A DNA stretch of 40,327 bases. Source: Faecalibacterium sp. An122. GTDB taxonomy: Bacteria > Bacillota > Clostridia > Oscillospirales > Ruminococcaceae. The notes under the pieces were generated by a model. The model saw only the letters and a program-made list of their open reading frames with translations, searched no databases and was not told the DNA's origin. Both the position numbers and the translations under genes were made by a program. Below, in pieces: positions 17,129 through 21,432 of the stretch. The stretch is taken from assembly GCF_002160895.1 (NCBI RefSeq), contig NZ_NFLL01000025.1, forward strand, positions 1-40,327, read 5' to 3'. How positions within the stretch are numbered: position 1 is the first letter of the stretch; every line of letters begins with the position of its first letter.

Positions 17129-17779
17129 ATGGCGATCATCAGTCCATCGATTTTATCTGCCGACTTCTGCCGTCTGGGGGATGAGTGCCGCATGGCGCTG
17201 GAAGCCGGAGCCGAAATGCTCCACTTTGACGTAATGGACGGACACTTTGTGCCCAACATCAGCTTCGGCGTGCCGGTGCTGGCCAGCCTGCACCGGGGCA
17301 TCCCCAGCGCTTTCTTTGATGTGCATCTGATGATCAGCCATCCGCTGTCCTATGTGGATGCCTTTGCCAAGGCGGGCGCCAGCCTCATCAACTTCCATCT
17401 GGAGGCCGAGGACGACCCGGCTGCTGTGCTGGACGCCATCGAGGCAGCGGGCTGCAAGGCCGGCATGACCATCAGCCCGGGCACCCCGGCTGAAAAGCTC
17501 TTCCCCTGGCTGGACCGGCTGGACCTGGTCCTGGTGATGGGGGTGGAGCCTGGCTTTGGCGGCCAGAAGTTCATGCCCTCGGCCCTGGATAAGCTGGCCG
17601 CCCTCAAGGCGGAGCGTCAGGCCCGGGGCCTGGAGTTCCTGCTGGAGGTGGACGGCGGCGTCAACGCCGAGACGGCTCCTCTGTGCACTAAAGCCGGCGC
17701 GGACGTGCTGGTGGCGGGCAGCGCCGTGTTTGCTGCGGCTGACCCGGCTGCTGTGGTGCAGGCCCTGGCGGCGGTGTAA
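17129..17779 (+). CDS. rpe: Ribulose-phosphate 3-epimerase
   Basis: Interconverts ribulose 5-phosphate and xylulose 5-phosphate in the pentose phosphate pathway. The TIM-barrel motifs are complete: SPSILSADF, LHFDVMDGHFVPN with the catalytic Asp and metal ligands, DVHLMI, GVEPGFGGQKF and VDGGVN. The length of 216 aa is typical. The ATG at 17129 is preceded by GGAGAG; the longer frame to 17003 runs through the promoter and is rejected. It is the first gene of an apparent operon with three Rnf-like membrane genes, the next starting 23 nt later. That pairing is unusual, since rpe normally sits with ribosome-assembly or thiamine genes in related bacteria. Confidence 0.96.
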   Translation: MAIISPSILSADFCRLGDECRMALEAGAEMLHFDVMDGHFVPNISFGVPVLASLHRGIPSAFFDVHLMISHPLSYVDAFAKAGASLINFHLEAEDDPAAVLDAIEAAGCKAGMTISPGTPAEKLFPWLDRLDLVLVMGVEPGFGGQKFMPSALDKLAALKAERQARGLEFLLEVDGGVNAETAPLCTKAGADVLVAGSAVFAAADPAAVVQALAAV

Positions 17780-17802: not shown

Positions 17803-18822
17803 ATGGAAGAAACAACAAGAAAAGAACAGGAGGCGGCGCTGGCCCAGACGGGCCGGTATTATAAGCACATCTGCTGGATGGCGCTGCCTCTTGTCTGCAT
17901 GTCGGCCTATCTGTATGGGCCGCGGCCGGTCGTGATGTGCCTGGTGGCCCTCCTGACCGGCAATTTGTGCGACCGTCTGGTGGCGGTGCTGCGCCGCCGC
18001 GTGTACAGCGCCTCCGACTGGTCCAATGAGAGCTTTGCCCTCGTCATCGCCCTGCTGATGCCGGCGACGGTCAGCTGGTATGTGCTGGTGGTGGCGGTGG
18101 TGGCCGGCGTCCTGCTGGGCAAGGAAGCCTTTGGCGGCTACGGCAGCTACCCCTTTCATCCCGCGGCTGTGGGCTATGTGGTGGTGGCGGTGTCCTGGCC
18201 GGAACAGGTCTTTCTGTACCCCCAGCCCTACGCCAATATCCCCCTGTTTGACACCTCGGGGGTCAACCTGGTCAGCGGCATGAGCAATACCCTGCGCAAC
18301 GGCGGCCTGCCCACCGTAGGGTCTTTGTCCCTGTTTCTGGGTGAGTTCGCCGCCCCGCTGGGCAGCGGCGCCGTCCTGATTCTGCTGGCCTGCGGGCTGT
18401 TCCTCTGCACCCAGAAAGATATCCGGCTGCCGGCTGCCCTGAGTTTCCTGGCGGCCTGCGCTGTGATTGTCTTTTTGTTCCCCCGCCAGGCCGATCTGGT
18501 CCACACCGCCGTGTGGGACAGCGTCTGGCAGCGTCTCAATCTGGTGAAATACGAACTGGTCAGCGGCGCCACCCTGTACAGCGCGGTGTTCCTGATCAGT
18601 GAGCCCTATACCTGCCCCCGGCGCAAACTGGGCCAGGTGCTGTATGGGGCTTTGCTGGGCTGCGTCAGTATGCTGTTCCGCTATGTGGGCGTGTACGAGA
18701 CGGCGGTCTGCTTTGCCATCCTGATGATGAACGGCCTGGCCGGCTGGCTGGACCGCGTGGTGGAGCGGCTGTACCGCCTGCCTGAAAACCGGCGGGCCGG
18801 CGGGAAGGAGGCTGCCTTATGA
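17803..18822 (+). CDS. RnfD-like membrane protein with altered flavinylation motif
   Basis: Homologous to subunit D of the Rnf ion-pumping complex along its whole 339 aa: about ten membrane segments, GGYGSYPFHPAAVGYVV (matching GGxGxNPFNPAxxGYVV) near 111-127, and VSGATLYSAVFLISEPYT (matching LSGATMLGAFFILTDPVT) near 256-273. True RnfD binds FMN covalently on the Thr of a DGxSxAT motif; here the aligned segment is N155-LVSGM-S161, with Asp to Asn, Ala to Met and Thr to Ser, so flavinylation is doubtful. The ribosome site GAGGATG is modest. The stop overlaps the next start by 4 nt (ATGA). rnfC is absent upstream, its usual place being taken by rpe. Confidence 0.88.
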   Translation: MEETTRKEQEAALAQTGRYYKHICWMALPLVCMSAYLYGPRPVVMCLVALLTGNLCDRLVAVLRRRVYSASDWSNESFALVIALLMPATVSWYVLVVAVVAGVLLGKEAFGGYGSYPFHPAAVGYVVVAVSWPEQVFLYPQPYANIPLFDTSGVNLVSGMSNTLRNGGLPTVGSLSLFLGEFAAPLGSGAVLILLACGLFLCTQKDIRLPAALSFLAACAVIVFLFPRQADLVHTAVWDSVWQRLNLVKYELVSGATLYSAVFLISEPYTCPRRKLGQVLYGALLGCVSMLFRYVGVYETAVCFAILMMNGLAGWLDRVVERLYRLPENRRAGGKEAAL

Positions 18823-19544
18823 AACAGAGCAAGGCGGAAGTCATCCTTCGTGACCCGGGCAAGTACGCCCATCACGACCGCATCTTTTTGAATAACCCGG
18901 TCATCATGCAGGGCATGGGCCTGGCCCCGGTGGTGGTGCTGGCCACCACCGGCCGCAACGCCCTGATGCTGGCGGTGGCGGTGGCTCTGCTGCTGACCCC
19001 CTCCCGCGTGGTGAGCTTTTTCCTCAGCAAGCTGGTGCCCCTGGAGGAGCACGCCAGTGAGGAAGAACTGCGTGCCAAACTGCTGCCCCGCGGCCTGATT
19101 TATTCCGGCACCGCGGCGGTCATGTATCTGCTGTTTTACCCCCTCATGAGCCGTCTGTTCGGGATGGAACTGCTGACCCTGGGCATCTATCTGCCCATGC
19201 TGGTGGTGGAACCCCTCATCATCTACCGCTACGGCCGCGTCCAGGAGACCCTGCGCAAGTCGGTGTCCAAGGGCCTGCGGGTGACGGTGGGCTATGCGGT
19301 GGTTCTGCTGCTGGTGGGCTGCGTCCGGGAATGGCTGGCCTCCGGCACCGTCTTTGGTTTTGCCGTGACGGCCAATACCGTGCTGCTGCCCCTGGCCTCC
19401 ATGCCGGCGGGCGGATTCATCCTGCTGGGCGTCCTCAGCGCCATCTGGCGGGCCCTGGCGGCCCGGTATCGGGCGTTCCTGGCCAATGAGGCCCGCAACC
19501 AGGTGATTGTCAACCATCAAAAGGAAGCGAGGGGAGAACCGTGA
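18819..19544 (+). CDS. RnfE/NqrD-like membrane protein lacking iron-sulphur cysteines
   Basis: It aligns with RnfE: LNNPVIMQGMGLAPV corresponds to KNNSALVQLLGLCPL, LGIYLPMLVVEPLIIYR to LGIFIPLIVTNCIVVGR, REWLASGTVFG to REIIGNGTLF, and SMPAGGFILLG to the C-terminal LPPGAFIGLG. Genuine RnfE/NqrD carries a Cys in each of the first two motifs for a [2Fe-2S] centre inside the membrane. Here they are Ala36 and Pro132, and the only Cys in the protein is elsewhere (VGCVREW). About 50 residues around SKLVPLEEHASEEELRAK differ from the family. AAGGAGG precedes the ATG. It overlaps both neighbours by 4 nt, so the three genes are translationally coupled. Confidence 0.87.
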   Translation: MKQSKAEVILRDPGKYAHHDRIFLNNPVIMQGMGLAPVVVLATTGRNALMLAVAVALLLTPSRVVSFFLSKLVPLEEHASEEELRAKLLPRGLIYSGTAAVMYLLFYPLMSRLFGMELLTLGIYLPMLVVEPLIIYRYGRVQETLRKSVSKGLRVTVGYAVVLLLVGCVREWLASGTVFGFAVTANTVLLPLASMPAGGFILLGVLSAIWRALAARYRAFLANEARNQVIVNHQKEARGEP

Positions 19545-20173
19545 ATACTGCCATCTTTGCACCGGCCGGCTCTCTTTCCGAGGCGCTGACCATCTTCTTT
19601 GGCTACGCCATGATGGCGGTTCTGGCCCAGAATGCTGTTTTTACCCGTGCACTGGGCGTCTCCCGCCTGGTGCAGCTGGTGGGAGACGAGCGGACCAACA
19701 GCGTCCTGTTCGGTATCCTGCAGTGCATCACCCAGCTTCTGCTGGCCCCGCTGGCCTGGTATGTGGGCGGCATGGCTGCGTCGTTTGGGCTGGGAGCAGC
19801 CTCCCGGCCTCTGGTCTATCTGGCCTGTATTGCGGTGGTCAGTGTGGCCGAAATGGTCTTTCTGCATCTGGTCAAGCTGCCCTGGCAGCGTCAGCTGCTG
19901 CGGATTCTGCCGCTGGCCTGCCTGAATACCTGTGTGCTGGGCACCCTGCTTCTGGGCCGGACCCAGAGCTTCAGCCTGCTGCAGTCCATGGGCTTTGGCC
20001 TGGGCAGCGGCGTGGGCTATCTGCTGGCGGTGCTGCTGGTGACGGAAGCCCAGAACCGCCTGCGCAGCCAGGCGATTCCCGCGGCCTTCCGCGGGATGCC
20101 CATTACCCTGATTTACATTGGCGTGCTGGCGCTGGCCATTTACGGCCTGACCGGCCACACCGTCATCCTGTAA
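19541..20173 (+). CDS. RnfA/NqrE-like membrane protein lacking iron-sulphur cysteines
   Basis: The 210-aa protein aligns with RnfA: QNAVFTRALGVSRLVQLVG with NNFVLVKFLGLCPFMGVSK, RILPLACLNTCVLGTLLL with IFLPLITTNCAVLGVALL, and IPAAFRGMPITLIYIGVLAL with [20 protein letters not shown]. The two cofactor Cys positions are Ser41 and Thr130; a Cys occurs one residue later (131), so at most one displaced ligand remains. It starts at a GTG (19541) overlapping the TGA of the previous gene, with GAGGGGAG upstream. A perfect 8-bp stem CCGGGCCG / CGGCCCGG follows the stop without a T run. The canonical next gene, rnfB, is missing. Confidence 0.87.
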   Translation: MNTAIFAPAGSLSEALTIFFGYAMMAVLAQNAVFTRALGVSRLVQLVGDERTNSVLFGILQCITQLLLAPLAWYVGGMAASFGLGAASRPLVYLACIAVVSVAEMVFLHLVKLPWQRQLLRILPLACLNTCVLGTLLLGRTQSFSLLQSMGFGLGSGVGYLLAVLLVTEAQNRLRSQAIPAAFRGMPITLIYIGVLALAIYGLTGHTVIL

Positions 20174-20295: not shown

Positions 20296-21432
20296 ATGCC
20301 GAAGAGAAGGCGGAACAAAAAAGTCAAGCGGTATCACCGCAGCTTTTACAGCCGGGGAATGAAGATCAAGAAGGCCCTGGGCATCCTCGTGCTGGCCGTG
20401 GTGGTGCTGGGTGTGGCCTGGCTGGCCGCGCCCTATGTGTTGGACTGGGCCACCCATACCTGGTACACGGTGGTGCGGGACAGAGACCTGCCGTCCTCCT
20501 CCGAGGCGGCGTCTTCGGAGGCCTCGTCGGCCGCATCGTCCGAGGCTGCGTCCTCCTCGTCCCAGGCGGCCAGCTCGGCGGCTTCCTCCGAGGCGGCGTC
20601 CTCCCGGCCCGAGCCGGTGGACGGCACCGCCATTCGGGATGGCAGCTGGGCCACCGTCAGCCTTTCGGCGCTGGGGGATGAGGCATCCATCCGGGCCACC
20701 GCCCAGACCCTGGCCAGCCAGGGCGTGACCTATGCCCTGGTGCCCCTGAAAGACACCAACGGCTATATCTACTATGCGTCGGCGGTGCCGGCGGCCTCCG
20801 GCAGTGTGGCCGCCAGCGTGGTGGACCCTGCCCTCATCGCCTCCATCTTCAAGGAGGAGGGCCTGGTGCCGGTGGCCGGAGTGGCCGCCTTCCAGGACCC
20901 TGTGGCCAGCTACACCGACCGCTCCATGGCCATTCAGTACAGCGGCGACGGCAATTACCTTTGGTTGGATGCAGCCAATGCGGCCGCCGGCGGCAAGGCC
21001 TGGCTGAATCCCTATGCGGCTTCGGCCATCCAGTTTGTGGGAGATCTGGTGGAAGAACTGTACAACTGCGGCTTTGAACAGGTCTGCCTGTCGGCAGTGC
21101 AGTTCCCCCAGTCCACCTCCTCCAAACAGAGCTATGGCGAGACCGGCGGCGTGGGCCGCGACGGCCAGCTGGCGGCGGACATTGCCGCATGGGACGCCCG
21201 GTTTGCGGGGCGGGTCACCCTGTGGTACGAATACCCTGTGTCCAGCTGCACCGGCGTCAGCTCCACCCTGGGGGCTCTGCCCGCCCAGCTGGGGGTGAAG
21301 AATCTGGTCATCAGCCTGCCGGCCGGGGAAGCCCAGGATCCGGCCCAGCTGGCCCAGACCGTCGCCCAGATGAAAGAGCTGGGGGCTCAGTACGTTGTCG
21401 TGCGGGACAGCGAGACCGGGAGCTTTTATTGA
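20296..21432 (+). CDS. Membrane-anchored putative glycoside hydrolase (DUF4015-like)
   Basis: A 378-aa protein with a strongly basic N terminus, one membrane helix (about residues 26-50), a Ser/Ala/Glu linker made of repeated SSEAAS-type units (about 67-104), and an extracellular domain from about 110. That domain starts with WATVSLSALGDEASIRATA and has the rhythm of a TIM barrel (YALVPLKDTNGYIYYAS, YLWLDAANAAAGGKAWLNPY, QVCLSAVQFPQ, NLVISLPAG), which matches the DUF4015-type putative glycoside hydrolases of Firmicutes. It probably acts on cell-wall or extracellular glycans; the substrate is unknown. The ATG at 20296 follows GGTGAAGGAACC. It lies 122 nt beyond the rnf-like trio, so a separate promoter is possible but not clear. 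Confidence 0.8.
   Translation: MPKRRRNKKVKRYHRSFYSRGMKIKKALGILVLAVVVLGVAWLAAPYVLDWATHTWYTVVRDRDLPSSSEAASSEASSAASSEAASSSSQAASSAASSEAASSRPEPVDGTAIRDGSWATVSLSALGDEASIRATAQTLASQGVTYALVPLKDTNGYIYYASAVPAASGSVAASVVDPALIASIFKEEGLVPVAGVAAFQDPVASYTDRSMAIQYSGDGNYLWLDAANAAAGGKAWLNPYAASAIQFVGDLVEELYNCGFEQVCLSAVQFPQSTSSKQSYGETGGVGRDGQLAADIAAWDARFAGRVTLWYEYPVSSCTGVSSTLGALPAQLGVKNLVISLPAGEAQDPAQLAQTVAQMKELGAQYVVVRDSETGSFY

Follow-up and report, generated by a model that had tools for sequence, protein, structure and literature searches.

Three overlapping genes of Faecalibacterium sp. An122 encode homologues of RnfD, RnfE and RnfA that appear to form the membrane core of an Rnf complex without its redox function. 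They lie at positions 17,803 to 20,173 of the 40,327-nucleotide stretch of DNA that was analysed (the window; contig C18 of a 3.26-Mb genome that is 99.9% complete). This trio is real and conserved, and it has been named before, as 'rnfDEA', in a section of a paper (PMC10781979) that does not mention any loss of cofactor sites. Missing by sequence are the [2Fe-2S] site of RnfA and RnfE, the covalent flavin mononucleotide (FMN) site of RnfD, and the subunits RnfC, RnfG and RnfB (hereafter C, G and B); retained are the folds of the RnfD-like and RnfE-like subunits, the broken half-helices of the latter, and purifying selection. The loss of redox function is well supported by comparison with relatives, which further suggests that the trio is probably kept by selection for a membrane job different from that of the Rnf pump. 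It quite plausibly serves as a cation carrier or channel driven by a gradient, a proposal that we hold with middling confidence.

All three genes are on the forward strand and each overlaps the next by 4 base pairs (bp). The RnfD-like subunit (D; 339 amino acids (aa), 17803..18822) matches PF03116 at 1.8e-55, while the RnfE-like (E; 241 aa, 18819..19544) and RnfA-like (A; 210 aa with a GTG start, 19541..20173) subunits match PF02508 at 6.5e-24 and 1.5e-19 respectively. The NCBIfam models for rnfD, rnfE and rnfA also match, all far under their curated cut-offs, as is expected of divergent paralogues. The nearest sequences of solved structure are RnfD, RnfE and RnfA of A. woodii, C. tetanomorphum and A. 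vinelandii, and in the same search D and A match NqrB and NqrE as well. A preliminary description of this DNA, made from its letters alone, had proposed overlapping RnfD, RnfE and RnfA homologues in D-E-A order, with rnfC, rnfG and rnfB absent; the open reading frames (ORFs) and the Pfam and NCBIfam matches bear out the former, and no rnfC, rnfG or rnfB gene adjoins the trio in the window. AlphaFold models of D and E, each folded singly, have predicted local distance difference test (pLDDT) values of 82.5 and 80.3, and their top matches in the PDB are 9eri_D (template-modelling (TM) scores 0.75/0.80) and 9eri_E (0.62/0.74). In the model of E, helices break at residue 32 and at residues 130-131, resembling the broken half-helices that hold the cluster in Rnf (PMC12174285). 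A chance resemblance to Rnf is ruled out by the E-values, the folds and the number of relatives.

The membrane [2Fe-2S] cluster of A. woodii is bound by C25 and C113 of RnfA and by C25 and C108 of RnfE (PMC11889175). Alignment to the solved Rnf structures finds none of these four cysteines in the window, and the replacements that had been listed for them hold at every position. In E, Ala36 (18924..18926) stands in place of Cys25, and Glu131-Pro132 (19209..19214) replace Asn107-Cys108 at the half-helix break of the model. In A, Ser41 (19661..19663) replaces Cys25, and Asn129-Thr130 (19925..19930) replace Asn112-Cys113, with a cysteine, Cys131, adjoining Thr130. Of 172 relatives from a scan of genome contigs, the best 80 were retained; the alignment of stripped loci holds 87 D, 83 E and 82 A sequences from the window, 78 of the 80 relatives and eight further loci, and leaves out L148 and L151, which are copies of L040 and L038. 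In five aligned loci, where the contig ends, D is not accompanied by E or A, L042 lacking A only. Not one stripped locus has a cysteine at RnfE C25 (0/83), RnfE C108 (0/83) or RnfA C25 (0/82), whereas one is kept at RnfA C113 in 26 of 82. As controls, the order Oscillospirales supplied 26 complete rnfCDGEAB operons, 25 of which keep all four cysteines, as do five of five further complete operons (L210-L214). The recurrence of identical cysteine losses in 83 RnfE and 82 RnfA sequences, along with signs of purifying selection wherever pairs were compared, makes this more than chance.

What replaces the cluster ligands is also conserved within one clade. Position 107 of RnfE is acidic (Glu or Asp) in all 59 loci of the Faecalibacterium/Gemmiger clade, comprising 24/24 from Faecalibacterium and 35/35 of Gemmiger type (L047 is counted with the other D-E-A loci, not here), and position 108 is Pro in 57 of the 59. 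In the 26 canonical operons, position 107 is Asn and position 108 is Cys, with the exception of L055. R67 of RnfE is conserved in 77 of 83 stripped loci; in A. woodii, loss of this arginine brings activity down to 10% (PMC11889175).

The covalent flavin site of D is harder to align, yet points the same way. T156 of A. woodii RnfD carries FMN, and N123 and D249 bind riboflavin (PMC11889175); flavinylation follows the motif D-x-x-[S/T]-G-A-[S/T] (PMC12052999). The register of T156 in the window is uncertain, as it falls on Gly159 with MAFFT and on Leu156 with phmmer, and Ser161 makes a third register. The segment D150-S161 (18250..18285, forward strand) spans the proposed registers, and neither a Thr nor the full motif is present in any of the three. 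The claim that Thr had become Ser161 thus stands in so far as the FMN-bearing Thr and its motif are gone, but the replacement by Ser161 in particular depends on one register of three and is a weak match, its column being Ser in only 17 of 25 Faecalibacterium loci. Across the alignment, Thr occupies the T156 column in 8 of 87 stripped D rows, in a region that aligns poorly; the residues SAT lie close to the flavin site in L102 and L103. Two flavinylation-like patterns match 22 or 25 of the 26 canonical D sequences versus 2 or 13 of the 87 stripped ones, and those inspected among the 13 sit elsewhere in the segment, off the flavin site. The Thr itself is kept in 25 of 26 complete operons. At the riboflavin ligands the window has His119 (18157..18159, forward strand) for N123 and Glu267 (18601..18603, forward strand) for D249. 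Among the 63 loci of the Faecalibacterium/Gemmiger clade, N123 has become His in 51 and is Asn in 12, and D249 has become Glu in 62.

The genome that carries the trio also carries a complete rnfCDGEAB operon (contig C23, L071:6566-11537), which holds that genome's C, G and B. Within the genus, the D of the trio is found in 30 of 31 genomes, canonical RnfD in 30 of 31 and both in 29, and the two exceptions, G002 and G023, are 77% and 80% complete. The relatives come from Faecalibacterium, Gemmiger, Subdoligranulum, Ruthenibacterium, Pygmaiobacter, Bittarella, Massilioclostridium, Ruminiclostridium and other Oscillospiraceae or Clostridia. None of the 80 has a match to G or B at the trio locus, eight have C, and E and A are absent solely in four, where the contig ends. 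That the trio should be conserved apart from C, G and B and beside a complete rnf operon was the check suggested at the outset, and the 29 genomes with both, along with the 80 loci free of G and B, agree with it. The gene rpe lies upstream in 79 of the 80 relatives; it is less than 200 bp from D in 61, 266-748 bp away in 10 without a C match, and beyond C in eight. For 11 genomes with a stripped cassette (G000, G007, G009, G021, G027, G032, G034, G036, G050, G058 and G059) a second locus was fetched, and in all 11 it is a complete rnf operon with all four cysteines. In the other genera of the family, among the genomes listed, RnfD is matched twice in 19 of 23, once in three and not at all in one; a second rnf copy is common within the family, though not universal. 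At the level of the class, 391 genomes were sampled and the best 30 loci checked. All 22 loci outside the order keep both RnfE cysteines, so the stripped trio is likely absent beyond the order; of the eight inside it, two keep both, one has a single cysteine left and the other five have neither.

Since subunits and cofactor sites are gone, the trio could be taken for an rnf remnant in decay, but we consider this extremely improbable. The ratio of non-synonymous to synonymous substitution (dN/dS), estimated by NG86 from close pairs (11 for D and A, 10 for E), is 0.048-0.164 for D, 0.036-0.187 for A and 0.072-0.157 for E, against 0.028-0.252 for the neighbouring rpe, 0.020-0.181 for DUF1015 and up to 0.329 for DUF4015. 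Values of 0.04-0.19 indicate that the trio is not decaying, being far from the value near 1 of relaxed selection, and the initial impression that this was not random decay is upheld. The D frame is moreover free of inner stops in 30 of the 31 genomes of the genus, gene order is conserved, and D has 19 invariant columns in a 13-row alignment that reaches down to 23% identity.

Intermediate states appear to link the complete operon to the trio, in that CDGEAB, C-D-E-A (CDEA) and D-E-A (DEA) arrangements are all found. A complete rnf operon lies at or near the spot occupied by the trio elsewhere in L044, where rpe and one unassigned ORF are followed by CDGEAB and DUF4015, and in L049 and L052, where CDGEAB is followed by DUF4015. 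The order rpe-C-D-E-A is seen in L037-L041, L137, L138, L140, L147, L149, L153, L174, L175, L215 and L216, as well as in L042 up to its contig end, and D-E-A only is seen in the window's genus and others. The seven C proteins that were aligned (L037-L043) have all eight cysteines of the two [4Fe-4S] motifs invariant, and none of the seven has a GGAGFPT-type signature, which in RnfC we take to be part of the FMN/NAD site. An apparent early step of stripping is seen in L055 (genome G054, C9, 3390-8850), a complete rnfCDGEAB operon in which C108 of RnfE and C25 of RnfA have both become Gly; G054 holds another complete rnf operon, L163. A different arrangement is found in L051 (genome G052, C16, 5622-8423), where C-D-B occur without detectable G, E or A; its C has no GxGG..FP signature, and its D keeps the flavin-site Thr.

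Trees of the three subunits, midpoint-rooted only, separate stripped from canonical sequences. In the D tree, the canonical rows, A. woodii, L043, L051 and L161 lie behind one branch (100/99) with the rpe-linked stripped rows outside; in the A tree, 24 stripped rows are apart from 34 others (100/99); and in the E tree, stripped and other rows are apart with the exception of L040 (97/86). The L043 lineage (f7) deserves separate mention. Its members, L043, L207, L208 and L209 (genomes G042, G066, G085 and G130, 90-98% complete), have C-D-E-A with all four cysteines replaced, and its stripping seems to have been separate because L043 D falls inside the canonical branch. Long branches connect E and A of this lineage to the base of the canonical sequences, and the A run came with a warning that long branches meet, which leaves independent arrival at C-D-E-A likely but not proven. 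No full-length RnfB was matched in these four genomes, while four of five other searched genomes of that family have one. The E ORF of L043 is 505 aa long.

How might such a core work? In Rnf, reduction of the cluster draws Na+ into a buried site formed by the backbone of RnfE V106 and RnfA T111, beside RnfE N107, and RnfE R67 and E115 modulate the gate (PMC11889175). RnfD is akin to ammonium and urea transporters, RnfA/E have been likened to alternating-access symporters, and whether RnfD or the RnfA/E pair is the ion-moving part of Rnf and NQR is debated (PMC12174285). On the scenario that we propose, an rnf operon at the rpe locus would have been stripped stepwise, first of the cluster, of G and B and of the flavin/NAD site in C, and last of C itself, while a separate complete rnf operon served redox pumping. 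The product would be a redox-independent carrier or channel for Na+ or H+, acting through an alternating-access RnfA/E pair and an RnfD pore. Having lost its electron donor, the RnfA/E pair would have gained a fixed or protonatable charge at the former cluster position, and in the Faecalibacterium/Gemmiger clade the carboxylate of Glu131 in E may supply the negative charge once given by reduction of the cluster. In its fullest form, which we advance only tentatively, a redox-driven respiratory ion pump would have become a redox-free cation carrier at least twice in Oscillospirales, with the cluster of the clade replaced by a fixed carboxylate and a chemical gradient driving the RnfA/E gate.

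Several observations weigh against this scenario. A mechanism based on the carboxylate leaves the loci without one unexplained, and RnfE 107 is acidic in just 1 of 13 CDEA and 2 of 11 other DEA loci. E115, the partner of R67, has been replaced by Gly in 21 of the 24 loci from Faecalibacterium, though conserved in 35 of 35 of Gemmiger type. A second copy is neither sufficient nor always found: genome G037 has two rnf copies without losses in D, E or A (the complete, intact L162, and L161, which runs into the contig end but has these sites in place), and the four genomes of the L043 lineage were stripped where no second Rnf was found. Outside the Faecalibacterium/Gemmiger clade, furthermore, the riboflavin ligands of D are mostly kept (N123 in 24/24 and D249 in 21/24 CDEA and other DEA loci; both in 11/11 of the latter, whereas among CDEA loci N123 is kept in 13/13 and D249 in 10/13), so total loss of cofactors is doubtful in those relatives. 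Of the initial proposal, the core, an Rnf-derived complex that has no redox function and is not in decay, is strongly supported by comparison, and its role as an ion channel, transporter or docking platform is putative. Within the clade, Cys56, Cys197 and Cys303 of D are Cys in 60, 62 and 61 of 63 loci, while in six canonical D rows the first two are never Cys and the third is so in two. Given the intact ligands outside the clade and the three conserved cysteines within it, a residual or new cofactor in D is possible. Taken further, D could still be redox-active, through retained riboflavin or a metal site gained from these cysteines; RnfD-like proteins without the FMN Thr have been proposed to be redox-active (PMC10979944), and the SAT of L102 and L103 lies near the flavin site. 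We nevertheless judge this decidedly unlikely, since with the E/A cluster, G and B all missing there is no known path for electrons in or out, and in most loci of the window's own clade the riboflavin ligands have been exchanged as described above.

The pore of D invites another reading, in which D acts as a solute channel like its relatives among the Amt and urea transporters, and E and A are its scaffold. Foldseek places D near Rh and urea transporters, although the matches are weak (E 0.012 and 0.027, TM ~0.40) and none to the ammonium/urea transporter family is significant in that search. His119 lies in the former riboflavin pocket, but the position is Asn in 12 of 63 clade loci, and D is conserved no more strongly than E and A, so we regard this reading as very unlikely.

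A further alternative to a cation carrier is that the trio is a docking or assembly platform, which would regulate or relocate a bound partner, be it a subunit of the complete Rnf (C, G or B) or some other soluble redox protein. The complete rnf operon in the same genomes favours such a role, as does the retention of C with two [4Fe-4S] motifs in the CDEA relatives. The window's own genome has no second RnfC (besides the canonical RnfC, the profile matched only a ferredoxin-like stretch, and that weakly), and it has FMN_bind (PF04205) matches to spare, 11 in total on C7, C12, C20, C23, C25, C34 and C78, of which one is the canonical RnfG. Several of these matches are in open frames of ~700 aa, which suggests many flavoproteins; none of the 11 matches is on the window's contig. 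On the other hand, the residues of A that in A. woodii contact the ferredoxin domain of RnfB are altered, K32 being Gly in 23 of 24 and E158 Arg in 21 of 24 Faecalibacterium loci; the DEA state is without a C of its own; and the separately stripped lineage has four genomes without a full-length RnfB match. Docking is thus unlikely in our estimation.

Compared with known systems, the trio is closest to Rnf itself (RnfCDGEAB; 9eri of A. woodii, 7zc6 of C. tetanomorphum and 8ahx of A. vinelandii), with which it shares homologous D, E and A, the D-(G)-E-A order and the fold of D and E. It differs from Rnf in being without C, G and B, all four [2Fe-2S] ligands and the FMN-bearing Thr, and in its changed RnfB-contact residues. 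NqrB, NqrD and NqrE of Na+-NQR are more distant homologues of all three subunits, but NQR is redox-active, whereas the trio has no NqrA, NqrC or NqrF. For NQR itself, an origin by duplication of an rnf operon and loss of rnfB has been proposed (PMC4014512). Two-gene NQR/RNF-like systems have likewise been described, in which the NqrB/RnfD-like membrane protein lacks the flavinylation Thr, as in the trio, but has an NAD-binding domain and is paired with a flavinylated NqrC/RnfG-like subunit, with electron export as the proposed function (PMC8238504, PMC10979944). These have two subunits and no E/A pair, while D of the trio has no redox domain: PF03116 is its sole Pfam domain with no PF00175 fusion, and its contig has no FMN_bind match, so the hallmarks of such systems are not seen.

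In F. duncaniae A2-165, a 2024 paper lists 'rnfDEA, CG447_09840-830' and rnfCDGEAB as two putative operons for a proton-building NADH:ferredoxin oxidoreductase (PMC10781979). These are the same three genes by name in the same genus, and the section in question treats them as a redox pump and is silent on the cofactor sites; because those sites are missing, a proton-pumping rnf role of the trio is unlikely. The point matters for interpreting energy metabolism in a common gut commensal, as the trio is there counted in the proton-pumping rnf. In the open-licence literature searched, no other paper uses the term 'rnfDEA', and no title or abstract concerning RnfA or RnfE without cofactors was found, most subscription papers being outside that scope. 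A precedent for ion carriers that work without redox chemistry yet share homology with the membrane core of a redox pump is given by the Mrp antiporters, which are related in this way to complex I. The Mrp proteins are unrelated to Rnf, and in their case the carrier is regarded as the ancestral form, whereas the carrier state of the trio would be derived. A natural core with D, E and A but no E/A cluster would make the ion path testable apart from electron transfer.

Upstream of the trio is rpe, for ribulose-phosphate 3-epimerase (17129..17779, forward strand; TIGR01163 at 2.1e-76), and the 23-bp gap between it and D has no terminator-like site; together with the constant synteny, this points to putative co-expression of the trio with rpe. 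Downstream is a gene for a DUF4015 protein, a putative glycosyl hydrolase (20296..21432, forward strand; PF13200 at 2.1e-12), a common but not obligate neighbour. We considered DUF4015 as a partner of the trio and dropped the idea because no more than 44 of the 80 relatives have a detected copy; the gene lies 3' of the trio in the window and 3' of canonical rnf in L044, L049 and L052. The DUF4015 protein of the window has a hydrophobic stretch at its N-terminus as well as a long linker of Ser, Ala and Glu, and is probably surface-exposed. Finally, in the Gemmiger-type loci inspected, such as L107, L109, L113 and L121, the RnfE-like ORF, read from stop to stop, has an N-terminal extension of ~100-260 residues that is rich in Pro, Ala, Arg and Gln and probably disordered.

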